Source of the DNA: Niallia sp. FSL W8-0635
Lineage (GTDB): Bacteria; Bacillota; Bacilli; Bacillales; Cytobacillaceae
Direction of reading: 5' to 3'
Assembly (NCBI RefSeq): GCF_038007965.1
Contig: NZ_JBBOYD010000002.1
Span: forward strand, 310,001 to 374,000
Length of the DNA: 64,000 nt
The translations under genes and the position numbers were made by a program. The notes beneath the pieces are model-generated. The model was not told the origin of the DNA. It searched no databases and saw only the letters and a program-made list of their open reading frames with translations. Shown here one piece after another: positions 15,582-62,487 of this stretch. Within the stretch, counting starts at the first letter, position 1, and every line of letters begins with the position of its first letter.

Positions 15582-15652
15582 AAGCCTTTGGGCCTTTGAT
15601 TTTTACTTAACAATATTTTTGTTAGGTTAATAAAAGGACCAAAGGCTTTTTT
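15582..15652 (+). terminator. Leader terminator 1, upstream of the 15686 gene
   Basis: Stem aagcctttgg / ccaaaggctt extended inward by CCTTT/AAAGG and an inner TTAACAA/TTGTTA hairpin, followed by tttt. A -10-like TATGAT lies at 15555-15560. The next gene starts 34 bases downstream. The flanks (acacg.agcctttggg and aaaggcttttttgtgttt) are nearly identical to leader 3 at 18194-18263. Confidence 0.75.
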
Positions 15653-15685
15653 GTGTTTATCACAGAAAGGAGCGGCATGTAATTA

Positions 15686-15913
15686 ATGAAGGGGAAATAT
15701 TTAGGAAAAGCAGATAGTGCTAACTTAGTTCCTGGAATGAGTTATTACTTATTTGAAAATGGTAAGGATTATTTTTATGTTTCTCGTTTTAACAATAAGA
15801 AGGCTCATTTTGGTTGCTACGAAAAAACACCTTTTGAAATTAATGAGGAAACAAGGGAGAAAAGTGAGGTTACATTTAAAGTAAGCAGTTCAGGACAGAT
15901 TTCATTTTTCTAA
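15686..15913 (+). CDS. Hypothetical protein, 75 aa
   Basis: ATG at 15686; AAGGAG at 15667-15672 is rather far (13 bases), but the nearer ATG at 15677 hits a stop at once. Small soluble protein (GKYLGKADSANLVPGMSYYLF, YFYVSRFNNKKAHFGCYEK) with a beta-rich look; no family recognised. First of the small-gene cluster behind leader terminator 1. Confidence 0.6.
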   Translation: MKGKYLGKADSANLVPGMSYYLFENGKDYFYVSRFNNKKAHFGCYEKTPFEINEETREKSEVTFKVSSSGQISFF

Positions 15914-15967
15914 AAGAGATCAGTTGGCATTTATCATTGGTTTTTAAATAAAAAGGGAGGCAAAAGA

Positions 15968-16267
15968 ATGGAAACTTTAATAAATACTGTAGAACAGGTG
16001 AACTTTAAAGTTGAAACTTCATGTTTTAAAACTTATGAATTTTCCACGCATAATGGATTATATGTTGAAGAGGCACAATCGGAGTTTAGTTCATTTCGTT
16101 TAATGATCTATAAAAATGAAGAAGCGGCTATATTTGTTGCAAATGAGTTTGATTATGATATTAGCGAAGAGGTTTCTTATTTATTTGATATCGAAAAGAT
16201 TAAAAATATTTGTGAAAACCAAAAGGATGTACCAGATTTCTCTGATGATTACTATAAAGAAAATTAA
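15968..16267 (+). CDS. Hypothetical protein, 99 aa
   Basis: ATG 15968 behind AAAGGGAGGC. Acidic soluble protein with alternating aromatic residues (VETSCFKTYEFSTHNGLYVEEAQSEF split in two strands) and an acidic C-terminus ending DYYKEN. No recognised domain. Likely co-transcribed with the preceding 75-aa gene. Confidence 0.6.
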   Translation: METLINTVEQVNFKVETSCFKTYEFSTHNGLYVEEAQSEFSSFRLMIYKNEEAAIFVANEFDYDISEEVSYLFDIEKIKNICENQKDVPDFSDDYYKEN

Positions 16268-16332
16268 AAATTCTGATATTTTTTTGAAATCATATTAGTA
16301 ATAATTGGTACAGGTTAAATGGAGGAACTGAG

Positions 16333-16521
16333 ATGTATTACGATCGTGAAATACATATAAGAGTGGAAAGAGAGAGAAAAAGAATAATCGAATTCCTAAA
16401 AGAAAAGGGGATCACACGAAATAAAGATGATGAAAAAATAGATGATTTAACACTTTTGTCATTAACTTTAATGGAAAATGAATTACTAGCAGATATAAAT
16501 ACCAAAAAAGTATCTATATAG
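16333..16521 (+). CDS. Small basic protein, FbpA-like
   Basis: 62 residues, ATG behind TGGAGG. The core RKRIIEFLKEKGITRNKDDEKIDDLTLLSL resembles the FbpA (Fur-regulated basic protein) family layout: a basic helix, a G.. turn and a leucine-rich LS.EL helix. The match is by eye and modest. No Fur box was seen. Confidence 0.5.
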   Translation: MYYDREIHIRVERERKRIIEFLKEKGITRNKDDEKIDDLTLLSLTLMENELLADINTKKVSI

Positions 16522-16533
16522 GAGGATTATTTA

Positions 16534-16707
16534 ATGATTAGTTATACTGAAGAAGAAAAAGAAGTTGTGACTAAATTAGTTATGGAGTTAGCAAGAATAG
16601 ATAATAAGAAAAGAAGAAAAGATTTAGTTTGGTGGTATTCCATGGCCAGTGGAATCAATAATAATGAAAAAACTAAGAAAATCATGGAGGATATAGAAGC
16701 AATTTAG
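16534..16707 (+). CDS. Small hypothetical protein, 57 aa
   Basis: ATG at 16534 twelve bases after the preceding stop, with TAGGAGG correctly spaced. Begins MISYTEEEKEVVTKLV, contains a basic KKRRKDLVWWYSM segment and ends MEDIEAI. Helical, charged, no family recognised. The excellent ribosome site and tight spacing argue for a real gene. Confidence 0.6.
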   Translation: MISYTEEEKEVVTKLVMELARIDNKKRRKDLVWWYSMASGINNNEKTKKIMEDIEAI

Positions 16708-16821
16708 CTTTGCCTTTTCTGAAAGGAGAGTTTAGTTTTTTTTGGGTTGAATTTTTCTATTTTTATCCTTATTATAAATATATAGGAAATTAGAAGAGTG
16801 AATATAATATATTGAGAAATG

Positions 16822-16876
16822 GGAGCACCCCAATTACTAAGTAAAGTCTTAGTATATTGGAGTGCTCTCTTTTTTG
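16822..16876 (+). terminator. Leader terminator 2, upstream of the nuclease lipoprotein gene
   Basis: ggagcaccccaattactaag pairs with cttagtatattggagtgctc (a few mismatches) and is followed by tctttttt. A TATAAT at 16803-16808 would start transcription only a few bases before the hairpin. The coding start is 17 bases after the T-run. Confidence 0.8.
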
Positions 16877-16892
16877 GAAATGAGGGGTTTAG

Positions 16893-17513
16893 ATGAAAAA
16901 GATTATTTCCACTTTATTTATTTTATTTTTATTAAGTGGATGTTCAACAGATAGCCTAGTTACTTACCAGTCTAAAGAGAACTACAAGACTGATAATCAG
17001 GTAGAAAAGGAGATTTCGTTTAAGAAGTACTTTAATGATGTCAATCGTTCTAGTGAAAAGGCAGCTGATATTAAAACAGAAAAACACAAAGCTATAGTAA
17101 AAAAAGTGATAGATGCTGACACTTTAGTTTTGGAAGCAGATAAGTATACCGCTTTGAGGTTAATCGGAATAAATGGACCTGAAATTACAAAAGGGAAGAA
17201 TGAGCCATTTGGACAAGAAGGTAAGGAATATCTGGCTAACCTTATAGAAGGAAAGGAAATTACCTATCAATTGGATCCTAATGCTGATGAAAAGGATAAG
17301 TACGGAAGAATTTTGGCGCATGTCTTTTTAGATCAAATTAGTATTCAGTCATATTTATTAAAAGAGGGATATGTTAAATTAGCTTACTTATTTGATGAAT
17401 ATGAATTTATTGATGTCTATAAGGATGCAGAAAATATAGCAAAAGAAAAACAATTAAATATTTGGAGCATCCCTGGTTATGCAGATACTGACTTAAATGG
17501 TTTTGTTAAGTAA
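16893..17513 (+). CDS. Thermonuclease-like (SNase) lipoprotein
   Basis: 206 residues. Signal peptide with lipobox LLSGC (Cys17), so anchored outside the membrane. SNase domain from about residue 65: VIDADT (Asp76, the D21 equivalent), LRLIGINGPE (Arg89 and Glu97, the R35/E43 equivalents) and DKYGRILAHVF (Arg139, the R87 equivalent). The calcium ligand pair D40-T41 of staphylococcal nuclease is Asn94-Gly95 here, so metal binding may be altered. Such nucleases are common on Gram-positive conjugative elements. Preceded directly by leader terminator 2. Confidence 0.85.
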   Translation: MKKIISTLFILFLLSGCSTDSLVTYQSKENYKTDNQVEKEISFKKYFNDVNRSSEKAADIKTEKHKAIVKKVIDADTLVLEADKYTALRLIGINGPEITKGKNEPFGQEGKEYLANLIEGKEITYQLDPNADEKDKYGRILAHVFLDQISIQSYLLKEGYVKLAYLFDEYEFIDVYKDAENIAKEKQLNIWSIPGYADTDLNGFVK

Positions 17514-17553
17514 TACAAAGATATTCTAAAACAATAAAATTGGAGGAATACTC

Positions 17554-17727
17554 ATGTATAAACTAAGAGATCAAATAGAGCGGGTAAGAGAAGAAATGTT
17601 AAAAATTGCATTCTCAGAGGGATTTAATTCTCCCGAAGCAATAAAGAAGAGTAAAGAGTTAGATGAATTAATACTAAGATATCAGCAAATGAACCAAAAT
17701 GAATCGGTAGAAGTTAGAATTTGTTAA
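17554..17727 (+). CDS. Spo0E-like aspartyl-phosphate phosphatase
   Basis: 57 residues, ATG behind TTGGAGG. Two short helices with the family signature SKELDELILRY; Spo0E-type proteins carry S.ELD.LI, the Asp being needed to dephosphorylate Spo0A-P. The N-terminal helix LRDQIERVREEMLKIAF fits the family hairpin. On a mobile element it could delay host sporulation. Function is inferred from the motif. Confidence 0.75.
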   Translation: MYKLRDQIERVREEMLKIAFSEGFNSPEAIKKSKELDELILRYQQMNQNESVEVRIC

Positions 17728-17757
17728 GAGGGTAAGAATAGTTTAGGAGGGGACATA

Positions 17758-18003
17758 ATGATAGATTGGAGAGAAGAAGACGTTAATAGATTCTTTAGCT
17801 ATCATAAAACAATTACTTATTATGGTGATGAAATACCTAAGTATCTGGTTCTAGAAAATCCAGATGGGGACGGTTGGATAATTGGTATGTTTTATCCATT
17901 TATAGGAGGAGAGTACGTTCCATTAGAAGAAGCGGGAGACGTACGACTATTATTTTCTACATTAAAGTCAGCAAAAAATTATGTGGATTTTAATTTATGG
18001 TGA
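17758..18003 (+). CDS. Hypothetical protein, 81 aa
   Basis: ATG behind TAGGAGGGG. Small acidic protein with DWREEDVNRFF, a LENPDGDGWIIG turn and aromatic C-terminus NYVDFNLW. No family recognised. Last gene before leader terminator 3. Confidence 0.6.
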   Translation: MIDWREEDVNRFFSYHKTITYYGDEIPKYLVLENPDGDGWIIGMFYPFIGGEYVPLEEAGDVRLLFSTLKSAKNYVDFNLW

Positions 18004-18193
18004 GAAGTGATCAAATAATAAAAATTCTTAGACTTGAAAATTTATATCTAGTAAAAAGGGATAGGTTTACTATCTCTTTTTAAATTGTGTAGTGTTATAA
18101 GAAAGAAAATCGTATAATAAATGTATAACCATTTTTTCTTTTTTCTTTTTTGGCAATCCTATTTAGGATTAGCGTCTTAACTAATAAACACGC

Positions 18194-18263
18194 AGCCTTT
18201 GGGCTAATAGGCATAATACATGTAACGCATGTATTTATTGTCTATTGCCTCAAAGGCTTTTTT
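18194..18263 (+). terminator. Leader terminator 3, upstream of the DUF4257 gene
   Basis: agcctttgggctaatagg pairs with tattgcctcaaaggct (bulged) around an inner catg hairpin, followed by tttttt. A TATAAT lies at 18113-18118. The coding start is 37 bases beyond. Outer flanks match leader terminator 1. Confidence 0.78.
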
Positions 18264-18299
18264 GTGTTTGCGCAAATTTTTCAAGAGAGGTGAATAGGC

Positions 18300-18626
18300 A
18301 TGTTAAATAAAATAATTTTGGCTGGTTGTATTGGATTTGGTATGGGAGTTTTAACTCACGCAAAGAGGTATGGGACAATAAAAAAACCGAGGAATAATAA
18401 ACTTACATTCTATCCGGGTTTCTTATTGGATGGTTGTTTTGGAGCTGTTGGAGCTATTGTTACGATTTTATTCAGTGATCCAAATGGAACGGAACGAGTA
18501 ATTTTAACATCAATCTTAGGTGGATATGTAGGTGAAAATGCAATTATTAAAGTTGAAGAATCACTTCAATCAAAGAAGGAAAGCAGAATAGAGGAAATAA
18601 ACAGAAAGATAAATCAGGATCTGTAG
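18300..18626 (+). CDS. DUF4257-like membrane protein
   Basis: 108 residues, ATG behind AGAGAGGTG. Hydrophobic N-terminus (LAGCIGFGMGVLTHAKR), then GFLLDGCFGAVGAIVTILFSDP and VILTSILGGYVGENAI, with the spacing of small DUF4257 membrane proteins of Bacillus plasmids and chromosomes. Two or three membrane helices and a basic/acidic C-terminal tail. Function unknown. Confidence 0.65.
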   Translation: MLNKIILAGCIGFGMGVLTHAKRYGTIKKPRNNKLTFYPGFLLDGCFGAVGAIVTILFSDPNGTERVILTSILGGYVGENAIIKVEESLQSKKESRIEEINRKINQDL

Positions 18627-18741
18627 TGTTTATTTTTTCAACATGATTTCGATATGTTATAATATTTATAACAATAATCGTAGTATAGTGCAGAAGAGCA
18701 TAGAATATAGTCGAGGTAAGATAGACGAGAGGAGAGAAATC

Positions 18742-18996
18742 ATGAAACTGAATGATATCCTAACGGAAGAAGAAAAAAAACAAGTTAATGATTTAATGGT
18801 AGAGTTAGACGATTGTATTACTGAACGCCAAATGGATAAGATAACTAAGGCTATAGAAGAGATTTTTAATGAAGCTAAAAAAAGATATTATGAATCAATA
18901 GGTTCAAATAAAGAGCAAGCCGCTTCATTACAGGAAGATAGAAGGATATTTCATAGAAGATCCCCTAAGCGATTAAGAAAAGTATCATCTTACTGA
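18742..18996 (+). CDS. Hypothetical helical protein, 84 aa
   Basis: ATG at 18742 behind GAGAGGAGAG; the frame is open further upstream but without a ribosome site. Helical charged protein (LTEEEKKQVNDLMVELDDC) with a very basic end FHRRSPKRLRKVSSY. It may bind nucleic acid or another protein; no family recognised. Confidence 0.6.
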   Translation: MKLNDILTEEEKKQVNDLMVELDDCITERQMDKITKAIEEIFNEAKKRYYESIGSNKEQAASLQEDRRIFHRRSPKRLRKVSSY

Positions 18997-19000
18997 ACAG

Positions 19001-19028
19001 AGAAGAGATTAATAATCTCTTCTTTTTG
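19001..19028 (+). terminator. Intrinsic terminator
   Basis: agaagaga / tctcttct stem followed by tttttg, directly after the 84-aa gene. Confidence 0.75.
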
Positions 19029-19131
19029 TTTTGTTTTTGATAAGTACATAAGCACGATTCTTATGAAAATAAGAAAATAAAAGTGCTTATAGGATAAAGG
19101 AACATTAAATTAATGAAAATTAATAACAACT

Positions 19132-19240
19132 AGACTTTTCGTTATATGGTTGCTATAATTTACCTATATAAATAACGAAGAGGGAATCCCCCTAGATGAA
19201 GACATATAAACTGTATGTCTTATTCTAGGGGGATTTTTTT
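19132..19240 (+). promoter_or_regulatory. Promoter plus leader terminator 4
   Basis: TAGACT, 17-base spacer, and an extended -10 TGCTATAAT (TATAAT at 19155-19160). About 20 bases after the predicted start point a strong hairpin follows: aatccccctaga with gaagacata, paired with tatgtcttat and tctagggggatt, then ttttttt ending at 19240. The ribosome site AAGGAG and ATG 19262 follow at once. Unless read through, most transcripts would stop before the gene. Confidence 0.78.
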
Positions 19241-19261
19241 GTTGAAAGGAGAAAAAACGTC

Positions 19262-19717
19262 ATGGAAAGAGAGAAAAAACTGAAAGAAGGCACATACTGT
19301 ACGAATGTTTTATTAAGATGGTTAACAACAGATTTATTATTAACTAATAAAAGGTTTAAAGGGTATGATCGTAATACCGTTTTAGGTTTAATGCCTATAG
19401 GAAAAAATGAAGTTACTATGTCCTTAAAGAACATAGCTAGTGTTTCAACATCAACAAAATTTCATCTAAAGAGATTTTTGTTTGGTCTGTTTTTTACATT
19501 CATATTAGGACTTCCTTCTTTTGTTAATGGTGATTTTTTCATAGGATTAGTCCTTATTCTTATCGGTATTGTTCCCTTGTTTAACAGTTATACTTGTTCG
19601 TTAAATGTATCGAATAATGGAGGGGTAGCTTTACCTATTGAGATTTCTATACTGGAAAGAGGGAATTTACAAGAATTTGCAAATGCGATTAATGACACAA
19701 TTGCTGAAGTAGAATAG
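19262..19717 (+). CDS. PH-domain-like membrane protein
   Basis: 151 residues. A soluble N-terminus (YCTNVLLRWLTTDLLLTNKRF, a pattern seen in bacterial PH-like domains: L.LTNKRF) is followed by two membrane helices (about 80-98 and 100-118) and a C-terminal strand/helix. The bPH family match is by motif only. Preceded by leader terminator 4 and followed closely by the 93-aa gene. Confidence 0.55.
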   Translation: MEREKKLKEGTYCTNVLLRWLTTDLLLTNKRFKGYDRNTVLGLMPIGKNEVTMSLKNIASVSTSTKFHLKRFLFGLFFTFILGLPSFVNGDFFIGLVLILIGIVPLFNSYTCSLNVSNNGGVALPIEISILERGNLQEFANAINDTIAEVE

Positions 19718-19732
19718 GGGGCTTAGAAACAA

Positions 19733-20014
19733 ATGTCTCTATCTTCAGAATTAGTTAAAAACGACTTTATTCAATTTCCTACAGATTATACAGATATGGT
19801 AATTAGATATGAATTAAGTAAATATGAATATATTGAAATACCCTTTATTAAAAAAAAAATTGAGAGTAAAGAATTAGCAGAATTAATTATAGAAAAAAGT
19901 AGTAGAGAAGAGAAAAAAACGCTTGTTGAGATGATAAACCGTATTCAAAAAAGAAATAGCTCGACAAAAGGGTATTTGGGGATCCTAGCAGTAGCTTTAT
20001 CTACCAAAGAGTAA
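19733..20014 (+). CDS. Hypothetical protein, 93 aa
   Basis: ATG 15 bases after the preceding stop, ribosome site GGGGGC. Soluble, lysine- and glutamate-rich with a helical middle (ESKELAELIIEKSSREEKK) and C-terminus GYLGILAVALSTKE. No family recognised. Co-transcribed with the PH-like gene. Confidence 0.55.
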   Translation: MSLSSELVKNDFIQFPTDYTDMVIRYELSKYEYIEIPFIKKKIESKELAELIIEKSSREEKKTLVEMINRIQKRNSSTKGYLGILAVALSTKE

Positions 20015-20070
20015 TGTTTGAGAAAGTAATCACTTGATTTAACAAAGGTTTGATAGAGAGTGAGAAGTAA

Positions 20071-20166
20071 ATGTGTATAGGAAAAGTACTTTTTGGTCTG
20101 AATATGGGCATTGTGCTAGCATTACCTCAATTAATCCTAATTTTAATTGATTATTTAAAGTGTTAA
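20071..20166 (+). CDS. Possible 31-aa hydrophobic peptide
   Basis: ATG 20071 behind GAGAGTGAG. The product starts MCIGKVLFGLNMG and has one hydrophobic helix (IVLALPQLILILIDYL). Could be a small membrane peptide, or chance. Confidence 0.3.
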   Translation: MCIGKVLFGLNMGIVLALPQLILILIDYLKC

Positions 20167-20204
20167 TACATGAATATGTTGAACAAATTGAAAATTCAAA
20201 TGGG

Positions 20205-20266
20205 ATAACCCCAAGATTCATAGAGAGACATTCATTTCTATGTATTCTTGGGGTTATTTTTTGGGG
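20205..20266 (+). terminator. Leader terminator 5, upstream of the wall hydrolase gene
   Basis: ataaccccaaga plus tcataga pairs with ctatgta plus ttcttggggttat, followed by tttttt. The ribosome site GGGGAGGG (20263-20270) touches the end of the T-run and the ATG is at 20276. Confidence 0.8.
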
Positions 20267-20275
20267 AGGGTTAAA

Positions 20276-21871: not shown

Positions 21872-21897
21872 TGACATGCTGGAGGAATGGGAAATGG

Positions 21898-22092
21898 ATG
21901 ATAAAAATCAGAGCGAAAATAGACGATGTGATTATCTTTTTGAGAGCAAACCAAGAGGTGACAGGAGTAGTAACCTTAGTTAAGGAAAATTCAGTTATTG
22001 TTCAGTTATCTTCTTATGATACAAATTTTCTTCAATATGAAAGTAATTTAACAGTGGTTAATCATAAGAATTACACTGTACTAGCAAATTAA
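21898..22092 (+). CDS. DUF2187-like small protein
   Basis: 64 residues if started at ATG 21898 (GGAGG at 21881-21885); an ATG at 21871 overlaps the hydrolase stop and is possible. The sequence IDDVIIFLRANQEVTGVVTLVKE, then SNLTVVNHKNYTVL, has the VTG.V..V.ENSVIV and TVVNHKNY motifs of the YkvS/DUF2187 family, a small KOW/SH3-like beta barrel. Coupled to the preceding gene. Confidence 0.75.
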   Translation: MIKIRAKIDDVIIFLRANQEVTGVVTLVKENSVIVQLSSYDTNFLQYESNLTVVNHKNYTVLAN

Positions 22093-22106
22093 TCTATATA
22101 ACTGCT

Positions 22107-22147
22107 GAACCTAAAGTCTTTCTAAAAAGGAAACTTTAGGTTCTTTT
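22107..22147 (+). terminator. Intrinsic terminator
   Basis: gaacctaaagt / actttaggttc perfect stem followed by tttt; ends the hydrolase/DUF2187 unit. Confidence 0.8.
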
Positions 22148-22194
22148 GGTAGTTTTGATATAAAAAAGAAAAATTTAAAAGAAGAAGGTGATGA

Positions 22195-22392: not shown

Positions 22393-22450
22393 ACATAGAA
22401 AATAGCTATGAGTATAGAATTTTTTGAATACAATGAGGTGATACGGGGTT

Positions 22451-23058: not shown

Positions 23059-26000
23059 ATGACCGAAATTAAATATGAGAGCTTAGCAGCTAAGAAGGAT
23101 CTTGGTGAAGATGATGTAATTAAGAAATCCTACTTTTATGCATTAGATGAAGCGTTAAAGGAAAGGGATAATAAGAATATTGCTATTACAGGTGGTTATG
23201 GTGCGGGAAAAAGCACTATAATAGAATCTTACTTTGAAAAAAATGATAAAAAAGCAAAAAAAATGATGCGAGTATCAATTGCCACATTTCAATTAGAACA
23301 GAATTCGGACCCGAATTTAAATGAAAATCTACTAGAACAACAAATTTTGCAACAAATGTTTTACCAAGTAAATCCAGACCAAATTCCTAATTCAAGATTT
23401 ACTAAGATTAGCGATTTAAATTTTTGGTATGTTTTTCGTATATTAGTATTTCTGATGTCCACCATAATTTTTACTTATTTATTAATAAGTAATGAATGGA
23501 TGAATAGTCTTAAAGAAGTTTTAATTGATTGGGTGGGGAAAGGATTGTGGTCAAACGTAATGTTATTTTTAGGATATATAATTTTAACATTACTTTATGC
23601 TCCTGCTATTTATTTGATGTTAATGATTTTTAGAAAACTAGGTGTTAGTAAGTTTGGAATTGCAAATGCAAACATTGAGTTTAAATTGCAGGATGGAAAC
23701 ACTGTATTTAATAATTATATGGACGAAATAATATATCTCTTTCACAAATCAAAGTACAAATATATTGTATTTGAAGACTTAGATAGATTTAAAAATTTAA
23801 AGATATATGAAAGCCTTAGGAGTTTAAATACTACACTTAATAATTCAGCCCTATTAAAAGATTCAGATATAAAATTCATCTATGCATTAAAAGATGATAT
23901 TTTCACTAACGAAGATGAATCAGAGCTAATTAATAATCGTACAAAGTTTTTTGATTTTATAATACCAACAATTAAAGTTATGCATAGCTCTAATGCTGAA
24001 TCATTTCTATTGGGCAAACTAAAAGATGTAATTGAAGAAGAGAATTCAATCGGAGTAGTCAGTAACCAGCAAAAAATAAGCAAAAAGTTAATAGAAGATC
24101 TATCCTTATTTATTAATGATATGCGTACCCTCATTAACATTTGTAATGAATTCCAAGTATACCGTACTAGGTTAGAAGACTCTAGTGTTATTTATGATCA
24201 ACTTTTTGCTTTCATTGTTTATAAGAATATCTATCCTAAGGATTATTCACATTTATTAGAGAATAAGGGATTAGTTTATAGAATTTTTAATAATAAAACA
24301 GAAATTATTTCAAACTTAAAAAATAAGATATCAGAACTAGAAAATAAAACAAAAAATGGAATCGGTAATATAATAACGTCTAAAGAAGATGTTGCTATGT
24401 TGTTTGCTAGAAAACAAAGATTAATGGATACGGTTTTAAAACAGGAACATAATATAATATTGAACATGACTAGTTATTCTAAAGATTATACGGCTGTTGG
24501 GATAAGTGTGCTTGATTATATTATGAATAATGGAATAGTTGGTCAATTTGGGGTCTACTCCAGGGATAATCATTATAATATGATAAATTCATATTCAAAT
24601 TTAGAAGAATTTGTTACTATTGATAATACTAACTTTTTAAATCTATACAAAGATTTTGATCGAAATATTGTTCGACAAGAACTAGAAGTAGATGTGCAAA
24701 TTAAAAACCTGGAGAAAAAAATAAAAAATATACAATCCAAGTCTATCTCAAGGTTAATGTTAGAAGATAAAATAGATCTTCATGTTGATTTATCTAATAA
24801 AGGATTACTGCAGCTACTTATACGAAATAATTGGTTAAATGAGTCTTATGAAGATTATTTGTCAGTTTTTCAGGAAGGTTCACTAAAAAAATTAGATATA
24901 GAGTTTATTCAAGCAGTTAAAAGAGGATTGGATGACAAAAAACATCTAGATGCTCCTTTAAAGAGTATTGAGAAAATCTCAAAGAAAATTAGAGTCGATG
25001 ATATATCTAGTGTAGCTGTACTTAATATATATTTTATTAAATATTTACTAGAGTTTAATACAGAAGAAAATAATGAAAAACTATCGAAGATAATAAATAT
25101 TTTATATATGGATATTGAGCAAGAGGATAGTGAACAAGAAAAAAAGATTGAAGAATATATAGAGTTTCTTGAAAGTTTACGGGATGAGAACGACCAATCA
25201 GAAAACCTAATTAGAAAGTTTCTGAAAAAAGCTATTACTAACGACATTGATATATGGGATATAGTAGTAATGAATGAGGATATTCCTATTGTACTAATTG
25301 ATAAATATGTAAATTTAATCTTAATGAATGCCGATTCTATTGATTTAGAAAAATTGAAGAGTATTGATAATTTACGTCACTATATCTCAAAAGAAACTGA
25401 TGTAACTAATATTTCTCTATCCGAAAACTTTCTTAAAATCGTTGGAAAACTAGATATTAAATTTAGTTCTTTAATTGGTTTTTCAGATGAAGTACTCGCT
25501 TGTTTAATAGAGATAGATGCTTACGAAATAACTCTTGAAAATTTAAGTGAAATATTTAAAGAACAGAAAATTTCTATAGAATTAATTAAAGGAAATAAAA
25601 GTGTTGAAAAATATACCTTTAATAATTTTGATATCTTAATAGATAAAGTTTTAGTATTTCAAAGTGAATATAATGAAAATGAAGAGGTATTAATCAACTT
25701 TATTAATACTATTGAAGAAGAAGATTATTCTATTCTGGAACCCTTGATAGTAAAATGGAATGGTACTGTAAGTGACTTATCTGCCATAAATCCAATTAGT
25801 TTGTTAGAAATGTTATATAAGAATAAAAAGTTTTCTCTCACTTGGTCAAATATAAAATATTGTACAGAGGCATTTAAAAATAGCAATATTAGCTTTAAAA
25901 TTGGCCATTTATTATCAACTGATGAAAATTGGTTAGATTTAATAGAAAATAGTTTGAATTCTATACAAGAGGTAAATGCTAATAACGGCTTTTATAATGG

Positions 26001-27096
26001 ATTTGTTAACTCGATTTTGGAATTAGGTATCCAAGATTATTCCTTGTTAGAAATGTTTATTAAAAAGTTAAACTACCCTGTAAAATTTGATACCTCTTTT
26101 CATATAAATCAGGAAACATTGAATGTGCTTATTGATAATGAATTACTTATATGGGATAAATCCGTATATATTCATTTAGAATCTTTAAATCATAAAAATA
26201 AGTATGTCTTAGACAAATTTAAGGATGCAAAAGAAGATATATCTTCTCTGATTTCAGAGAATGAAATGGAATGGTCGTTAAATATTTTAGAAATAATTCT
26301 CGAGGAAGGTAATACAGAAACTGTAACTATTAAGAACTACCTTAGTAATAAAGTTTCAGAGATACAGCTACGAGAATTTAAATTTATATTAGAAGAGGGA
26401 TTTATCAGTTATGATAATGATATCCTTCAGTCATTGTTAAATGAACCTAACAAAAGTGAGTTAGTAATTGAATACCTACTATTTCTGTTATTAAATGGTC
26501 GTGAAGAGAGGGTAATAAAAGTATTTGAAGAAGATGAAATTACTTGGGATTATAGACTCTTTGAAGAGGTCAGAAAAATAAGTGCCGACGCTGCAAGTAT
26601 ATACTTAATAGATAATAAAGAAAAAATAGATAGTATTCAAATGGATCAGAAATTATTTGAAGGACTAATTAAACACTCAGCGGACGTCAGCTTAAGTCTG
26701 TCTGTAATTAACAATAATTATCTAAATATCAATATTAACTCAGTTGTTTCCAAAAAAATATACGAGCATTTTCAAAATAATAGTGAACTTGTTATTGATA
26801 CCCTAGAAAATGTGTCTATCATAGGAATAATCAGAAATTTACCTATAGAAAATGCTTCAACTATGTTATTAGAGTTATTGAAAGTAAAACTTTTTGATCG
26901 GGAAGAAACATTTATAGTCCTCTCACAAATACAAACACCTTTTAATGAAATAAAGAGAAACGGTAAAAAGGTAGAGATTGATACTGTAGATAATAATATA
27001 AGCGAACTATTAGAGTACTTAAAAGTAAATCTACAAGTAATACTTGATTATACAGAAGAAGAAAAAGGTTATATTGTTAGAAATAAAAGGAAGTAG
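23059..27096 (+). CDS. YobI-like P-loop NTPase with two membrane helices
   Basis: 1345 residues, ATG behind AGAGGAG. Walker A TGGYGAGKST (about 45-53). The NTPase domain is split by two membrane helices (about 131-153 and 172-195), as in KAP/YobI-type NTPases, then Walker B-like YIVFEDLDRFKN (about 235) and KFIYALKDDIF. The remaining roughly 1000 residues are helical repeats without a known domain. YobI-like and KAP NTPases occur on mobile elements and are suspected conflict proteins. The gene is flanked by defence loci; a defence role is an inference. Confidence 0.8.
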   Translation: MTEIKYESLAAKKDLGEDDVIKKSYFYALDEALKERDNKNIAITGGYGAGKSTIIESYFEKNDKKAKKMMRVSIATFQLEQNSDPNLNENLLEQQILQQMFYQVNPDQIPNSRFTKISDLNFWYVFRILVFLMSTIIFTYLLISNEWMNSLKEVLIDWVGKGLWSNVMLFLGYIILTLLYAPAIYLMLMIFRKLGVSKFGIANANIEFKLQDGNTVFNNYMDEIIYLFHKSKYKYIVFEDLDRFKNLKIYESLRSLNTTLNNSALLKDSDIKFIYALKDDIFTNEDESELINNRTKFFDFIIPTIKVMHSSNAESFLLGKLKDVIEEENSIGVVSNQQKISKKLIEDLSLFINDMRTLINICNEFQVYRTRLEDSSVIYDQLFAFIVYKNIYPKDYSHLLENKGLVYRIFNNKTEIISNLKNKISELENKTKNGIGNIITSKEDVAMLFARKQRLMDTVLKQEHNIILNMTSYSKDYTAVGISVLDYIMNNGIVGQFGVYSRDNHYNMINSYSNLEEFVTIDNTNFLNLYKDFDRNIVRQELEVDVQIKNLEKKIKNIQSKSISRLMLEDKIDLHVDLSNKGLLQLLIRNNWLNESYEDYLSVFQEGSLKKLDIEFIQAVKRGLDDKKHLDAPLKSIEKISKKIRVDDISSVAVLNIYFIKYLLEFNTEENNEKLSKIINILYMDIEQEDSEQEKKIEEYIEFLESLRDENDQSENLIRKFLKKAITNDIDIWDIVVMNEDIPIVLIDKYVNLILMNADSIDLEKLKSIDNLRHYISKETDVTNISLSENFLKIVGKLDIKFSSLIGFSDEVLACLIEIDAYEITLENLSEIFKEQKISIELIKGNKSVEKYTFNNFDILIDKVLVFQSEYNENEEVLINFINTIEEEDYSILEPLIVKWNGTVSDLSAINPISLLEMLYKNKKFSLTWSNIKYCTEAFKNSNISFKIGHLLSTDENWLDLIENSLNSIQEVNANNGFYNGFVNSILELGIQDYSLLEMFIKKLNYPVKFDTSFHINQETLNVLIDNELLIWDKSVYIHLESLNHKNKYVLDKFKDAKEDISSLISENEMEWSLNILEIILEEGNTETVTIKNYLSNKVSEIQLREFKFILEEGFISYDNDILQSLLNEPNKSELVIEYLLFLLLNGREERVIKVFEEDEITWDYRLFEEVRKISADAASIYLIDNKEKIDSIQMDQKLFEGLIKHSADVSLSLSVINNNYLNININSVVSKKIYEHFQNNSELVIDTLENVSIIGIIRNLPIENASTMLLELLKVKLFDREETFIVLSQIQTPFNEIKRNGKKVEIDTVDNNISELLEYLKVNLQVILDYTEEEKGYIVRNKRK

Positions 27097-54197: not shown

Positions 54198-54203
54198 CAC
54201 TTA

Positions 54204-57200: not shown

Positions 57201-58586
57201 GTCTTTTCTGAACCCTTCTTCATTTTCATTTGCCCATGCTGTAGCTTTTTCATCAGCAATAGTATTAGCTAGTTGTTCATCCGCTGCTTTATCAGCATTA
57301 TTAATATCTTTAAAACCTTTAAGTCCACTTTTTAAAAGAGCTGAACCTCTGTTTGCTAATAATTGAGCACTTGCTCCACCAACTCTTCCTGCAAGTCCAC
57401 CAGCAACACCGCCGGCATGAAAACCAATTGTTGAACCAGTTAGCACACCCATTGGTCCAAGAGCAGAACCAGCAAGGGCACCAGTAGCCCCAAATACAGC
57501 TTTACCACTTCTAGACAAAATGTTTCCTGGCTTTAACATTTTTTCAGCATTAGCAGTAGTCCCAGTATCTGTTCCTGTATTTCCTGCAAGAGTTTTTTTG
57601 ATGTCACCTACTGTATCATTATCTTCTGATGATACATTGTCAGAGTCTTTTCCGTTACCTTTACCTTTGTTTTTAGCATTAAGGTATCCCCTTTTAATAG
57701 CATCTGTAACGGATGTACCTTCTAATGCCCCTTTAGCTGCTCCATACATACCAACTAAAGCGGACCCACCCATCATAGCAGCTGCTTTTGAGAAGCCATC
57801 ATTCATTTTTCCTCCAAGACCTATTAAAGCTCTTAAAGATTCAGTTACTGGAATAAAGATAATCATTAGAATAACTGCTTCAATCGGATTTGCTGCACCA
57901 ACCATAACAGCCATTATGAAATAAACGGCTGCATGAATAGATTGAACAAATATAGTGCCTACTAATTCTTTAAACCATGCCACTGTAATGGACTTTGTTT
58001 GAGGAATTAAGAAAAATACCAGCATCAAAGGACCGGTAATTAACAACAACATAAGTGTAAATTTCCGCATTGAATAATAGAAATAAGCCCATATACAAAG
58101 ACCGACTTTTACAATCGTAATTGCTAAAACACCTAACACTCCACCTGGATATTTAGACATTTCTATAGCATTTTTTAAATTTAACAAGTCTACATCAGAT
58201 CCAAATAATCCGACAATTGCCTGGTTAGTAAGAAACAAAATGGCATAAATTGAGTATAAGTTTGCGAATAGTACTGAAACTAATAATAATTCTTTAAAAT
58301 ACTCAATTACATAGGTTCTATTAGATGGATTGATACTGGTCGATGAAATTTTCATTGCTGCCATAATAATACTAATTAATAAAGCGGTAACTGCTAAGGC
58401 TGTGAAAATATTCATTCCTGGAGTGTAAACCTTAGTAATTTCATTTTCTGTAAAAGTTAAGAAAGCTAAATTTTCATCCCCTCCAAAAATCAAATTCTTT
58501 AATGTTGGGAGACTTTTAAAAGGCGATGCTATCCAATCACCCATAGCAGAAAAAAGTGAGGATATAAGTTCCTGGATTTTATTCAA
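54204..58586 (-). CDS. Giant VirB6/TrbL-like conjugation protein with tandem repeats
   Basis: 1460 residues from a TTG at 58586, behind GGAAGGAGG (12 bases, long). The first 270 residues hold about six membrane helices (FTALAVTALLISIIMAAM, LLVSVLFANLYSIYAILF, FTLMLLLITGPLMLVFF and others), as in VirB6/TrbL channel proteins. A glycine/alanine-rich hinge (360-400) follows. Residues about 445-960 contain five repeats of 105-120 residues with the core WA.(D/E)NK..FMK.YD..NPLP..A....... W. The C-terminus is soluble (YYMKDALNEMENIKMVIDH). Very long for the family. Confidence 0.85.
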   Translation of the reverse strand: MNKIQELISSLFSAMGDWIASPFKSLPTLKNLIFGGDENLAFLTFTENEITKVYTPGMNIFTALAVTALLISIIMAAMKISSTSINPSNRTYVIEYFKELLLVSVLFANLYSIYAILFLTNQAIVGLFGSDVDLLNLKNAIEMSKYPGGVLGVLAITIVKVGLCIWAYFYYSMRKFTLMLLLITGPLMLVFFLIPQTKSITVAWFKELVGTIFVQSIHAAVYFIMAVMVGAANPIEAVILMIIFIPVTESLRALIGLGGKMNDGFSKAAAMMGGSALVGMYGAAKGALEGTSVTDAIKRGYLNAKNKGKGNGKDSDNVSSEDNDTVGDIKKTLAGNTGTDTGTTANAEKMLKPGNILSRSGKAVFGATGALAGSALGPMGVLTGSTIGFHAGGVAGGLAGRVGGASAQLLANRGSALLKSGLKGFKDINNADKAADEQLANTIADEKATAWANENEEGFRKDFKERFPDAHEEAVNKAWDNEKASKKAGFLNEARGMVAGMKSKEGKNANASSLVKNATSNLTNKWAEKNKEPFMKEYDQKNPLPENASKEEISRHQNARENAWQSQLKEKESSIQNLASDVANDIGNGASLNHSYINKEDFEKRMAERMAGGISQKAIAKTSTNLAKDWAKDNKDNFMKNYDEKNPLPLNATAEQKSAHSNAKAEAWKNEIDNKQKSIANVLGNGNLKLRNGQEKNQLFTNQLAKDIGSIIGVNENSEKMDQISDQLHNVYSPNPISTATQSLTSSWAKDNKASFMKNYDKSNPLPDNATSEVKANHAQQKQNAWDNQVQQKQQKLGNILTSQSNAIMSGKNVPLENVTKSIAQELGISTSDSSKMNAISSQVQTGLSSVQGASSKVSNTTEVLASSWAKNNKQNFMKNYDKSNPLPANATSEMITSHNQQKEKAWNSEVQQKQQSISNIIRDNSNAVLHGTPSQISKVTSAIAKEMGISSNNTAGMNAITQQLQTGISSPSLVDKGLKSISSINNVKDSIASVKGTSMYSGKEVNVPYVNNQIASMKINEARETFANNSNLPRAQAYQNFDSSGKAQEITSSVQKSMPSNIPLGQRIIQNSAGRITAGLGNGLVQGVVGASGLKEVSQFVGDTKIGHATKSFGNAMATSYIAKQPNLTSLTDKMTAAKESLIDGSKAFTNDFKTYTPSNLVEKQAKFRNAVAYAGGMVAGVGGYQVMAKYAAPSMSNSKAFGLKGFNPYNNAVNKQIKEISDVAHMAQTVTLDNGQTEIAQGAIQMVTDNKNTVVQVRDKTGQTHVVSRMASGHSGLKNNQVVYQDLTVRDGQLLSASSSYSLDSGGGKVPAPKINVNPNQLFTNRNTSKTPRVVQEVQSYNQLVDSGQYYMKDALNEMENIKMVIDHNRSYMTGTRNGTTYRISPYGPGDARVQNDKTITANCEVRNKKLIPSFSDSDFTTSLKPEDLMAYAVPNKRNFARKQLEMHRNKAFTSSLR

Positions 58587-58606
58587 AGCAAGATAACGCC
58601 TCCTTC

Positions 58607-60721
58607 CTAATAAAAACTACTAGCTTTTTGTTTTTGTCTTTGCATTGTTTCTTCATAAACCGCTTCATTGGATTCAATAAAGAATAATTCTTCTTTACTA
58701 GGATTCGTTCGTAACCATACAGATGATTTTCCGACTCGGAGAATTCCTTCTCCTTTATCCGGATTACCGAATAGAATGTTAATTTCTCCTTCAGATAAAT
58801 CAAAATTTTCTCTTATAGCTTTTAAATCCAATTTGCTTTGTTTTAAAAACATAAAAGAGTAAGTGTTTTGTAGGATCCCCCTAGCTTTCTTATTTTCAAC
58901 AAAACGAACAAAATCTTGACTTGCAAGTCTTAAACCAGCGTTCCGCTTACGAGAACGTCTTGCCATTTTCTCAAGAAAGTTAACAGTTTGCTCTGAATCT
59001 ATTAAAGTCCAAGCTTCATCGGCATAAACAAATTTCTTTTTCTTTGCGTTATCCAAACTCTTAACAAAGTGTTCCCATGTATAGTTAAGGAGTACATGAT
59101 AAGCAATAGGTCTTAAAAAGCCTTCTTCCATTTGACTAATATTGAAATTTACGAGTCTAGCATTTTCTAATGATTGAGTGACTCCCTTTCCTAAAAAAGT
59201 TTGTCCATCAAAAATAGGTTTACTACCAGTTCTTAAGAATGGTTTGATGGCAGCTATTAAGCGAAACGCCCTTGGTTCTTCGCCGTATTTTGTTATTAAG
59301 TATTCATTAACATCACTTATTGTTGGTTCTGGTTTTCTAACCCTCGATTGAACAAGATGATTATCGATAGTTCTTACATTGTTTTCAAATAAGGATTCAG
59401 GGTGTGAATTTATGTTTAATTTGTTATGAATAACATGCTGAAGTGCTTCTTCCAAATAGTTTCTTTCAAAGACATCTAAACCTTCAGCTTCTTGGTTTTT
59501 ACCTCTACATATAATGTCAAAGAAATCGATTGCCTCATTGATTTTTTCTCGAATAGGTACAAATCGAATATAGATTTTCCCATCCTTTTCTATAATTTCC
59601 TTTTCGTCGCTTTCTTCTATTAAACTAAGTTCTTCATCTCCATCTTCAAAGGGAATATCAGAATAGTTTAATGCAAGAGGGTTGATACAGATATCTTCTT
59701 CTTCGTTAATATTTAAATTAATTCCACCTAAACGTTTTGTAATTTTAACAAATTCACCTTCAGGATCTATTAATCTAGCATATACATCTGCTCCGGTAAG
59801 TTCTCTTGCAATTAAGAGTTTAAGAGTAACGGACTTTCCGCTACCAGAAAATCCAGAAATAAACATATTATAATTATCAGGTCGAAAATCTTCATTTCCG
59901 AAACTATTTATAAATTCAAGTTGATCAGTAATTTTATTTATCCCAATAGGAACTCCACCCATGTACTTTCCACTTCCAGAAATAAAAGGCGAGAAAGTAG
60001 ATAAAGCACGTCTATCTATATTTCTAAGAGAATCATGTATTTGGTTTTTTCCAAAGGGCAAGATACTTTTGAACCCCTTTTGGATCCTGCCCCATGTACT
60101 AGTTAATCCAAAGAAAGAACTACTTAATTCATCCTCTAAAGACTCACTAAAATAGTTTAATTGCTTCTCATTTTCTGCATATAACATGGCCAAAGTTCCA
60201 ACATTAAACATATCATTTTCACCAAACTGTATTTCAGACATCAATAAGTCTGTATCTCTTATCTTTGCTGTTAAATCATTAATTTGGTCAATATTCCCTC
60301 TTTTCGTTTGAAAGGAGAGGTTAGATTCCAACATTGTAATTTGTCGCTGAAGAGTACGGATTGCATCTGATTTACCAACTTTATGAATATCAAGAAATAC
60401 ATCTACCTCTCCACTTGATAGTAAGGAATTGAGCCAATTGGTTTGCATTTTCCGTGGATATCCATCTCGAGGTATGTACATTGGTCTAAAATATGTTTTT
60501 GTACCTAATGATGTCTTTATAACCCCATAATCTTCCGACTCAATTTTTAAGCCTTCCGGAGAAATAATTTCCCACATTGTTGGTTTTGTATCAATTTGAT
60601 AATCTATATCTTTTACTTCATTGCTTTTTTTATTTTTATTCCCTTTTGCTTTCTTACTAGTATTTTTTTTAGCTAGCTTCTTTTTCTCTTGCTCTCTCTC
60701 TTTCGTTTTCATTATCTTCAT
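58607..60721 (-). CDS. VirB4-type conjugation ATPase
   Basis: 704 residues. N-terminal basic coil, then the TraC/VirB4 N-domain and the ATPase domain: Walker A SGFSGSGKSVTLKLL (about 297), Walker B KKKFVYADEAWTLIDS (about 565), followed by RRSRKRNAGLRLASQDF, the VirB4 motif D region. Energises assembly of the transfer channel. The start lies inside the end of the preceding gene (53-base overlap). Confidence 0.93.
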   Translation of the reverse strand: MKIMKTKEREQEKKKLAKKNTSKKAKGNKNKKSNEVKDIDYQIDTKPTMWEIISPEGLKIESEDYGVIKTSLGTKTYFRPMYIPRDGYPRKMQTNWLNSLLSSGEVDVFLDIHKVGKSDAIRTLQRQITMLESNLSFQTKRGNIDQINDLTAKIRDTDLLMSEIQFGENDMFNVGTLAMLYAENEKQLNYFSESLEDELSSSFFGLTSTWGRIQKGFKSILPFGKNQIHDSLRNIDRRALSTFSPFISGSGKYMGGVPIGINKITDQLEFINSFGNEDFRPDNYNMFISGFSGSGKSVTLKLLIARELTGADVYARLIDPEGEFVKITKRLGGINLNINEEEDICINPLALNYSDIPFEDGDEELSLIEESDEKEIIEKDGKIYIRFVPIREKINEAIDFFDIICRGKNQEAEGLDVFERNYLEEALQHVIHNKLNINSHPESLFENNVRTIDNHLVQSRVRKPEPTISDVNEYLITKYGEEPRAFRLIAAIKPFLRTGSKPIFDGQTFLGKGVTQSLENARLVNFNISQMEEGFLRPIAYHVLLNYTWEHFVKSLDNAKKKKFVYADEAWTLIDSEQTVNFLEKMARRSRKRNAGLRLASQDFVRFVENKKARGILQNTYSFMFLKQSKLDLKAIRENFDLSEGEINILFGNPDKGEGILRVGKSSVWLRTNPSKEELFFIESNEAVYEETMQRQKQKASSFY

Positions 60722-61577
60722 ATTCCTGAATCGTCTCCTTTACTAAGTCAATATGAGAGTCTGTTTGATCTGCAGTTACATATAATGCATCCTTTTCTTG
60801 ATTAACCAAATCTTTAAATCGGTTTTTTACAGCTTTACGACGATTAAATGTATAGTAAAGTAATTCATAAATACCTTCTGTTGGTAAAAGAGAGACATGT
60901 ATATCGGCTTTTCGCAATTGATTTCTTGCTGAATTAACCCTTCTCATTAATTCAGCAAAAGCTTTATCTACAATTTTTTCTTCTAACTCTTCTTCAGAAT
61001 CCGCGCTAATAGAGTTAACATTTATTTTATGAGTGAAAATCATATAAATTTTAGTTTCAAATCTTGGTGCAGATTTTTGCCATTCAACAATATCTGCAAT
61101 CATCGCTTTTCCAAATGAAAGGGCAGCTTCATTTAAATCCTTGGATTCTTCCATTACTTTATTCATTGCTTCAATAGGCTCCGAAACATCAACGAATCTA
61201 TTTTGGAGATAAACACTTACAGGATAATTAAGTGTTGCTGTCCAACTCTCAAAAGTCACATCAATTGCCTCTTGTTCAAATTGGCTTTTAAGAAAATAGT
61301 TAACAGGGTCTACTTCAGCGATTATAGAAAAAGAATAATCAGTATAATGAATAAGGTGATTAGATATATCTTTTACATCTGAGAATAACTCTTCGAATAT
61401 TCTTGGATCTTCTTCGGCCTGAAGAGGATTATTCTTCCCTTTTTCATTATTTTTCTTATTTAACTTTATTGGTGTTGCTTTTTTTCCTCTACCTGGGATA
61501 ATCGGTTCCTTCAGCATGATTTTCATGAAAACATATGCACCAACTGCAAAGAGCAGCATAATCAAAAGAGTTCCCAC
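60669..61577 (-). CDS. Conserved transfer protein with N-terminal membrane helix
   Basis: 302 residues, GTG start 61577 directly after the PrgI-like stop. One membrane helix at the N-terminus (LLIMLLFAVGAYVFMKI), then a soluble domain (YTDYSFSIIAEVDPVNYFLKS, FETKIYMIFTHKINVNSIS) and an acidic/basic charged tail. Between PrgI-like and VirB4 in several Gram-positive type IV systems there is a protein of this size. No catalytic motif. Confidence 0.65.
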   Translation of the reverse strand: MGTLLIMLLFAVGAYVFMKIMLKEPIIPGRGKKATPIKLNKKNNEKGKNNPLQAEEDPRIFEELFSDVKDISNHLIHYTDYSFSIIAEVDPVNYFLKSQFEQEAIDVTFESWTATLNYPVSVYLQNRFVDVSEPIEAMNKVMEESKDLNEAALSFGKAMIADIVEWQKSAPRFETKIYMIFTHKINVNSISADSEEELEEKIVDKAFAELMRRVNSARNQLRKADIHVSLLPTEGIYELLYYTFNRRKAVKNRFKDLVNQEKDALYVTADQTDSHIDLVKETIQEYEDNENERERAREKEAS

Positions 61578-61578
61578 T

Positions 61579-61929
61579 TTAACTATTCACCATCCATTTC
61601 TTTGGATACGTTCCTTTTCTCCATATGCCATTTTGTTTTTTCATGTTCATTTTTATTAAAAAGTACTGATCGAAGTTTAAATGAAGATTTTTCTTTTTAA
61701 AAAAGCCAAAAACAATTACGAAAATTGCTGTTGGAATAACACTAAATACACATGCTATCAATGCCACAATAACACCGGCACTTGAGAATATTTTGTATAC
61801 CATTGGGATATATGCATAAACTATTGACCCTGCTGCTCCTAGATAAATCAATTGTCTAATTGAGATGAATCCCAAAATAGTTTTTTGTTCAGATGCCATA
61901 TCTATTGGAACCTCAGCTCTTCGACTCAT
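61579..61929 (-). CDS. PrgI-like conjugation membrane protein
   Basis: 116 residues. RRAEVPIDMASEQKTILGF, ISIRQLIYLGAAGSIVYAY shows the P.di...e..i.g.lt.RQ. signature of the PrgI family; two membrane helices (about 28-45, 50-75) and the C-terminal YFLIKMNMKKQNGIWRKG. Inner part of the Gram-positive type IV channel, always next to VirB4. Confidence 0.85.
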   Translation of the reverse strand: MSRRAEVPIDMASEQKTILGFISIRQLIYLGAAGSIVYAYIPMVYKIFSSAGVIVALIACVFSVIPTAIFVIVFGFFKKKNLHLNFDQYFLIKMNMKKQNGIWRKGTYPKKWMVNS

Positions 61930-61997
61930 TTAATAATTTCCCTCCTAGAAATGAACCCCTCAATGTAAAGTACGATAGAGGGGTTTCAAATCAATAT

Positions 61998-62381
61998 TTA
62001 AGCTCCAAATCCTGCAAAATAACCAGCTATTACTTTTGCTTGTACAATAACAAAGACTCCGATACCCGCCATTGCAAGACCAATAAAACCTTGTGTTCTA
62101 TTTTGTGGATTCCCTTGTGAGCCTGATAACTTCATTCCAGCAAAGATAATACAAGCTAGTGCCCATATTGCACCGATTCCTGTGATAAGATATACAACGT
62201 TATTTAACTGGGTATATATCTTACTGTCTTTTACATTCCCTTGACTGGTGATTCCAGCTTTTTTCCATGCTGCTAATGCAGACTCTGGAACAAATAAGTA
62301 AAGATAGGTTAGTATCAGTGCCCCTAGGTAAAAAGGAATATCATTTAACCCTTTTACTCTTTTGATTGCCCCTGTCTTCAT
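61998..62381 (-). CDS. VirB2-like pilin
   Basis: 127 residues from ATG 62381 behind AAGGAGGG. Signal-like N-terminal helix with ESALA, two membrane helices (VVYLITGIGAIWALACIIFAGMK in parts; FIGLAMAGIGVFVIVQAKVI) and the short tail AGYFAGFGA. Typical TrbC/VirB2 layout. The same frame stays open upstream through the leader hairpin to about 62543 but without a ribosome site. First gene of the conjugation operon. Confidence 0.8.
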   Translation of the reverse strand: MKTGAIKRVKGLNDIPFYLGALILTYLYLFVPESALAAWKKAGITSQGNVKDSKIYTQLNNVVYLITGIGAIWALACIIFAGMKLSGSQGNPQNRTQGFIGLAMAGIGVFVIVQAKVIAGYFAGFGA

Positions 62382-62419
62382 TCTTAAAATCCCTCCTTTT
62401 AAATCAAGGAAAAACCAAT

Positions 62420-62487
62420 AAAAAAAGTCCCCGAAAAGACTATGGAAGATTGTACTTATGTACAATGCCATAGAATTCTCGGGGACT
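62420..62487 (-). terminator. Leader terminator 6, upstream of the conjugation operon
   Basis: On the minus strand agtccccga plus ctatgg pairs with ccatag plus tcggggact, with an inner gtac hairpin, followed by seven U (62426-62420). The operon's first start codon is 39 bases downstream. Same arrangement as leaders 1-5. Confidence 0.82.

Follow-up and report, generated by a model that had tools for sequence, protein, structure and literature searches.

Regulation of conjugation has mostly been described at the level of promoters, together with a few processive antitermination systems that act at single operons, and in the LicT/RAT system a protein-bound antiterminator overlaps the terminator. 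Here, we describe six leader regions in a 64,000-nucleotide stretch of DNA (the window) from Niallia sp. FSL W8-0635, which represents bases 310,001-374,000 of the plasmid-like contig C2 (445,863 b) of a Niallia-type genome of 5.14 Mb. Each of these leaders carries an intrinsic terminator shortly before the start of a gene or operon, and together with related leaders on other plasmids they fall into two RNA families, which we refer to as class A (leaders 1 and 3) and class B (leaders 2, 4, 5 and 6). The comparisons reported below make it probable that they constitute a plasmid-wide regulon of local attenuators, in which every leader is equipped with its own antiterminator hairpin.

Among the systems described previously, conAn of pLS20 and canT of Tn916 are alike in that terminators and their bypass control Gram-positive conjugation genes. 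conAn is located where a long operon begins, and it allows the RNA polymerase to pass many internal terminators (PMC8955417). As described there, such systems act processively from the operon start on several terminators further downstream, whereas the present leaders represent one local attenuator per promoter, with the terminator located directly before the first gene and behind a separate promoter-like box. The conAn-type processive antitermination suggested in an initial annotation of this DNA was not supported, since every leader has its own promoter-proximal, covarying hairpin that is exclusive with the terminator. The layout nearest to class A is that of the ANTAR (EutV) targets, in which several genes of a regulon share a pair of small hairpins and the second of these overlaps with the 5′ arm of the terminator (PMC3369931). 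However, ANTAR targets require hexanucleotide loops with A at position 1 and G at position 4, and the eut linkers measure 5-12 nt (PMC3369931), whereas none of the 14 hexaloops in the first class A hairpin (P1) showed this A1/G4 signature, most P1 loops were not hexaloops, the linker spanned 17-26 nt, and the second hairpin (P2) mostly had the loop UUUG. A search for ANTAR-domain proteins detected none in the genome, yet the control genomes were silent as well. In its logic, class B is nearest to BglG/SacY, where a protein-bound antiterminator likewise overlaps the terminator (PMC3369931), but the class B hairpin is smaller than that of BglG/LicT. Searching the genome for CAT_RBD gave four matches, all on contig C1 and none on C2. 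The NusG paralogue LoaP binds a small leader hairpin, whereupon the polymerase passes the leader terminator (PMC12691694); its target hairpin is described as sitting apart from the terminator, whereas the hairpins reported here overlap the terminators. Lastly, an analysis of premature terminators grouped leader terminators into candidate regulons, some of them mobile (PMC2965389); in its main text the word 'plasmid' does not occur, and no two-class partition into transfer and establishment genes was seen. Two features of an intrinsic-terminator attenuator were present in our leaders, namely a GC-rich hairpin with a U-tract between promoter and start (no promoter was seen for leader 5) and a mutually exclusive alternative hairpin. 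Among the open-licence literature matches listed, nothing concerned these leaders or attenuation across a conjugative plasmid. Rfam at the gathering cut-off yielded no match in the whole window, and the eight matches in seven 20-kb tiles with other leaders were without exception group II introns, with no leader or riboswitch family, while a T-box and two PyrR sites were detected in five chromosomal control tiles. At E ≤ 1, Rfam returned Phe_leader, miR-430 and IBV_D-RNA, all three sub-threshold and regarded as chance.

The six hairpins with U-tracts were indeed found where the initial annotation had placed them, 13-36 nt before the predicted starts (32, 17, 35, 19, 13 and 36 nt for leaders 1 to 6, respectively, measured from the end of the U-tract to start codons that, here and below, are crude predictions). 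Their folding energies were -30.7, -26.1, -34.0, -34.2, -25.3 and -37.6 kcal/mol, and in a hairpin scan they were the only hairpins of -25 or lower in the window, not counting the image of the sixth on the opposite strand. Because the nearest predicted upstream stop codons lie 107-488 nt away, and the gene preceding leader 4 has a separate terminator of its own at 18995-19031, the six hairpins do not serve the upstream genes as 3′ terminators. A side-by-side comparison of the leaders revealed two repeated layouts, one shared by leaders 1 and 3 and another shared by leaders 2, 4, 5 and 6, in line with the earlier remark that the stems differ except for those of leaders 1 and 3. The genes listed behind the leaders were also recovered, with corrected starts for the wall hydrolase gene (20276) and the pilin/type IV secretion system (T4SS) operon (62381), and the 151-aa gene labelled 'PH-like' gave no Pfam match.

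Class B is characterised by the 13-nt motif N-GGG-ANNN[AC]-CCC-N′, a 4-bp hairpin with a 5-nt loop, in which GGG stands at a fixed spacing before a CCC that is part of the base of the terminator 5′ arm. Since the 3′ strand of the small hairpin is at the same time the base of the terminator stem, the two structures are mutually exclusive. On the plus strand of the window, leader 2 combines a TATAAT -10 box (16803-16808), the putative antiterminator hairpin U-GGG-AGCAC-CCC-A (16820-16832) and a terminator (16821-16875) before a thermonuclease lipoprotein gene (start 16893). Leader 4 has a TATAAT box at 19154-19159, the first such hexamer lying at 19131, followed by the putative antiterminator A-GGG-AAUCC-CCC-U (19181-19193) and a terminator (19184-19240) before the 151-aa gene (start 19262). 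In leader 5, where no clear -10 box was seen by eye, the putative antiterminator U-GGG-AUAAC-CCC-A (20201-20213) and a terminator (20206-20262) precede the transglycosylase/NlpC-P60 hydrolase gene. Leader 6, on the minus strand, carries a -10-like TATGAT (62515-62520), the putative antiterminator C-GGG-AAGUC-CCC-G (62480-62492) and a terminator (62420-62489) before the T4SS operon, which includes pilin, PrgI-family, P-loop ATPase and TrbL-like genes.

For comparison, we used ten sequence sets, consisting of nine plasmids from eight genera (C2, the plasmid of Niallia sp. Man26, that of Priestia koreensis and six further contigs) and one Cytobacillus stretch; the scans covered 140,000 of 141,026 b of G209, 220,000 of 273,398 b of G387 and 230,000 of 232,150 b of the Man26 plasmid. 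Given the motif and a terminator, the closing N:N′ pair was of the Watson-Crick type in 64 of 66 class B matches, the exceptions being C2 position 122302 and one match in P. koreensis; some of the 66 are probably false, for example a Man26 match 3673 nt from a start. The 62 distinct elements that were retained when duplicates and matches weaker than -18 were dropped, and that were selected for the N:N′ pair and energy, had T (27), A (19) or C (16) at position N, giving A:U, U:A and C:G pairs. The hairpin persists on more distant plasmids with other stem letters; on the Lysinibacillus plasmid the stems are wholly changed (GUUCGG/CCGAAC, CACGG/CCGUG and UAAAGG/CCUUUA) with similar five-base loops. 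When folded, all 62 class B prefixes formed the small hairpin, and 54 of the 62 full leaders formed the terminator. Promoters, which throughout were scored as consensus-box matches only, were enriched upstream: an exact TATAAT preceded 22 of the 62 elements versus 11.1 in shuffles, and one with at most one mismatch preceded 55 versus 45.0. The predicted start lay within 70 nt for 52 of 64 elements. In the chromosome sample the motif occurred 14 times, never together with a terminator, and a species-level genome collection contained 26 stretches with the class B pattern, 17 of them from Bacillales and the other nine scattered. Viral contigs, queried with one pattern per class, gave no match for either class. 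Two further cases were noted: a symmetrical element on C2 outside the window (168453 and 168512) has the class B motif on both strands and no nearby gene start, and a Man26 element at 79907 lies 196 nt upstream of a predicted start. These elements are possible small RNAs or decoys.

Class A leaders consist, in order, of a promoter, a U-rich tract, P1, the 17- to 26-nt linker and a terminator with P2 inside its 5′ arm. Leader 1 (plus strand) corresponds to the class A match C2:325523-325661 (window 15523-15661) and comprises a U-rich tract at 15524-15547, where promoter-position statistics place the expected RNA 5′ end, P1 (GCUAUC-UUUAU-GAUAAGC, 15547-15564), P2 (GCC-UUUG-GGC, 3 bp, 15584-15593) and the terminator hairpin with its U-tract (15581-15655) before a small-gene operon (start 15686). 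Leader 3, likewise on the plus strand, has a TATAAT -10 box read from the sequence (18113-18118), a U-rich tract (18132-18152), P1 (GCAAUCC-UAUUUA-GGAUUAGC, 18153-18173), P2 (AGCC-UUUG-GGCU, 18194-18205) and a terminator (18194-18264) before a DUF4257 gene (start 18300). A covariance model recovered 74 class A copies in 1.88 Mb. The end of P1 is invariably GC/GC, one base of this hairpin is bulged, and its loop measured 4-6 nt in 57 of the 74 copies, while the P2 loop was UUUG in 45 of 73 distinct copies. Two-sided changes were observed at 15 of the 17 base pairs of P1 and the terminator, well above shuffles and slid controls; 94.9% of 1203 cells were paired, and the 168 two-sided cells compared with 47.3 in shuffles, a value reached in none of 500 shuffles. 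For the P2 helix, the two-sided cells amounted to 47 versus 16.2, with 81.7% versus 69.5% paired; the list of P2 stems, being the best of several registers with G-U pairs allowed, is in itself no test, for which this separate covariation count serves. P1 folded in 60 and P2 in 64 of 70 class A prefixes. An exact TATAAT was found upstream of 33 of 73 copies versus 13.0 in shuffles, and one with at most one mismatch upstream of 72 versus 55.7. As the -10-like box mostly lies at a narrow distance, the RNA is expected to start near the U-rich tract. A predicted start was found within 160 nt of 65 of the 74 copies and within 70 nt of 40. The initial annotation had tied its proposal of a common read-through control to conservation and covariation of the hairpins in relatives. 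Both were present, and the proposal survived with good support from the sequences, the two layouts recurring before orthologous genes on nine plasmids.

Two further pairings were considered in class A. Pairing of the P1 3′ arm with bases past CCUUUGGG was dropped by eye, as it fails in some rows. Also by eye, a GCGUUUA after the U-tract can often be paired with a UAAACGC before the stem (e.g., around 15581-15655 and 18194-18264), and this longer stem would enclose the U-tract in the read-through RNA.

The two classes are divided by gene function. A leader was counted for a gene when it lay within ∼160 nt (class A) or ∼130 nt (class B) of the predicted start. By this measure, class B preceded the replication-relaxation/coupling-protein operon and the Tad/CpaF operon each on 8 of 9 plasmids, the pilin/T4SS operon on all 8 plasmids that have it and, as judged by regular expression, a gene for an S1-domain protein on 5 of 9. 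Class A preceded the DUF6018 gene on all nine plasmids (in P. koreensis upstream of SSB) and the genes for Rad52 (5 of 6), an ArdC-like protein (5 of 6), DUF4258 (7 of 8) and DUF4257 (6 of 6). Among 69 families present on at least five plasmids, nine were flagged with class B only, six with class A only and none with both. The Man26 thermonuclease gene has a class A copy ∼217 nt upstream, beyond the reach of this flag, and its C2 counterpart has class B. We therefore propose a division in which class B leaders act as gates for transfer genes and class A leaders for establishment-type genes. The original suggestion of an antiterminator 'acting after establishment' is half correct, class A standing before establishment-type genes and class B before transfer genes.

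Of 13 genomes from the genus, five contained class A, as did at least 23 of 397 genomes sampled across the order, representing at least 17 of 136 genera; the counts for the order are minima, as eight candidates were scored per genome under stricter filters. The copies were often multiple and on contigs much smaller than a chromosome. Class A was also carried by five out of nine additional plasmid records in which an S1 homologue is present. The leader cluster itself is shared with the Niallia circulans GN03 plasmid at 97.5% identity over 82% of an 8-kb query, and with the Man26 plasmid at 68% identity over 20%. Further afield, 26 leader-terminator candidates were found on a Lysinibacillus irui plasmid (L234-L246) and 16 in Sporosarcina (L247-L260). 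By eye, some of these leaders show a ACGGUGAA-like stretch upstream and, within the arm, a mini hairpin of the type CACU..AGUG; they may represent a third form akin to class A.

Strong leader terminators are in excess specifically on the plasmid. Of 45 hairpins with E ≤ -25 on C2, 12 were located within 45 nt before a predicted start and two within 60 nt after a stop, as compared to three before starts and ten after stops among 32 such hairpins in a 320-kb chromosome sample from the same genome. A rival 5′ hairpin (at least 4 bp, at least 3 of them GC) accompanied 54 of 84 plasmid leader terminators outside class A. Among terminators located after stops, its frequency was 2 of 212 on plasmids and 0 of 67 on the chromosome; none of 6 chromosomal leaders had it, and the remaining plasmid hairpins showed it in 32 of 1204 cases. 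These numbers bear on the idea that the terminators are insulators, which merely block stray transcription into costly plasmid genes while the small hairpins provide tuning without a dedicated regulator. A terminator has been reported as an insulator in the mobile element Tn916 (PMC11658703), and any leader terminator would also stop upstream read-through. Yet the covarying rival hairpin is almost absent from ordinary terminators, and the interval from the upstream gene to the terminator contains promoter-like boxes more often than in shuffles, so that an insulator at this position would silence the gene's own promoter. We consider this explanation unlikely.

In the attenuator model that we favour, each leader would be transcribed from its own promoter, and the short RNA would by default end at the terminator before the ribosome site. 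In class B, the 4-bp hairpin would emerge first, its 3′ strand also forming the basal part of the terminator 5′ arm; in class A, the U-rich 5′ end and P1 would precede P2, usually UUUG-looped, within the terminator 5′ arm. An RNA-binding factor, encoded by plasmid or host, would then hold the small hairpin, leaving the terminator unclosed and the gene to be read. The need for such a factor, as in BglG/LicT or ANTAR regulation, is argued from the energies, the terminator being ∼26 kcal/mol stronger than the early hairpin. From the distribution of the leaders, it seems that a large part of the plasmid life cycle may be governed by control over when RNA polymerase can pass.

Several observations weigh against this model. 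The small hairpins are weak (in class B on average -4.0 kcal/mol, versus -30.1 kcal/mol for the terminators) and should therefore lose to the terminator unless a factor holds them. Predicted starts lay more than 70 nt away for 12 of 64 class B elements and 34 of 74 class A copies, and more than 160 nt away for nine of the latter, distances that depend on crude start predictions. P2 of leader 1 has only 3 bp, and the P2 covariation count was blurred by loop-length variants and obtained from an alignment (A3) that had been fitted to the P1/terminator structure. Moreover, four class A matches lie on chromosome-like first contigs (C1).

A single conAn-, canT- or LoaP-like factor that is loaded once and then passes these terminators seems improbable, even though processive systems govern Gram-positive conjugation and polyketide operons (PMC8955417, PMC11658703, PMC12691694) and the class A P2 UUUG loop resembles the LoaP-bound UNCG hairpin. 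Since the terminators come first after separate promoter-like boxes, there is little left for processivity; the hairpins overlap the terminators, and a search for NusG paralogues found a single NusG-domain match (PF02357) in the whole genome, which is chromosomal, and no LoaP. Still less probable are attenuators that need no factor and respond kinetically to the speed of the polymerase or the supply of nucleotides. Since every class B prefix folds into the small hairpin first, speed could decide without a protein, but the conserved loop letters (A first and A or C last in class B, UUUG in class A), like the invariant GC/GC closing of P1, imply that something recognises these hairpins. Hairpins acting in single-stranded DNA on plasmid entry, like the Frpo/ssi promoters of leading-region genes, are very improbable: class A genes do resemble leading-region genes (SSB, anti-restriction; cf. 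PMC11541004), but the -10 boxes lie outside the hairpins, with no -10/-35 pair inside a foldable single-stranded hairpin, the foldability of the promoter region was no better than in shuffles (mean z -0.15 for 73 class A copies and -0.39 for 63 class B elements, the latter freed of duplicates and matches weaker than -18 without requiring N:N′), and the U-tract is consistent with a terminator.

Under the attenuator model, the S1-domain protein is the best plasmid-encoded candidate for the factor, although we put it forward only tentatively, and a host-encoded regulator is equally conceivable. Its gene (C2:81169-82074, outside the window) codes for a protein of ∼300 aa whose OB repeats resemble those of ribosomal S1, frequently has a class B leader of its own, and was found on all nine plasmids, where it represents the sole family recognised as RNA-binding among those common to all. 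The homologue was also present in all three distant plasmid records that were examined whole, and in 7 of 8 further annotated records the gene lay within 2 kb of the coupling-protein gene. Of 45 families found on 8-9 plasmids, 13 were matched on both the Lysinibacillus and the Sporosarcina plasmids, and S1 was the only recognised RNA-binding family among them (families of unknown function were not assessed). In the structural model (mean predicted local distance difference test 83.9; predicted template modelling score 0.66), the protein forms a chain of several OB folds, for which ribosomal S1 gave the best fold matches, a similarity that does not show an antitermination role. Other records speak against the candidate. 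In a Virgibacillus record, S1 and coupling-protein genes are ∼9 kb apart. On the Paenibacillus Cedars plasmid, no such leader was found within 12 kb of the S1 homologue. Eight leader-terminator candidates were counted over the full length of this plasmid; one of them was accompanied by a rival hairpin, which was of a different form, and the class B motif was absent from all eight, so that S1 and the leaders need not go together. Four of the 13 shared families (SSB and three T4SS proteins) had no match on this plasmid. It is conceivable, if doubtful, that these Bacillales megaplasmids control both transfer and establishment mainly at the elongation step, with a plasmid-encoded factor, possibly a three-repeat S1-like protein, reading two new minimal hairpins and different states opening either the transfer or the establishment set.

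The 74 class A and 66 class B matches across the ten sequence sets, divided by gene function, would amount to a plasmid-wide switch at the level of elongation if the attenuator model is correct. The 13-nt class B motif would then be a compact antiterminator hairpin, and the leader RNA a direct handle for finding the regulator; a plasmid-encoded reader of this kind, if confirmed, would represent a new class of antiterminator proteins and make the leaders, as far as the literature matches listed show, the first elongation-level attenuator regulon to span a whole conjugative plasmid. The leaders also mark plasmid genes, including those for DUF6018, DUF4257 and DUF4258, as a putative establishment set.

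Other features were noted in the window. Directly upstream of leader 1 lies a piece resembling the IS21 istA transposase (15049-15393, plus strand). The window further contains a Gabija anti-phage pair (36865-40679, minus strand; GajA, E 1e-267; GajB, E 2e-193), a Lamassu-type pair (9636-14597, plus strand) composed of an LmuA-like protein with a Cap4 nuclease domain (E 2e-22) and an LmuB-like protein (E 6e-62), and a large YobI-type NTPase (23059-27096, plus strand) with a match to the Tmn defence model (E 1e-52). Lastly, a 326-aa protein with MerR-like helix-turn-helix repeats (8525-9505, plus strand) has relatives on all nine plasmids.

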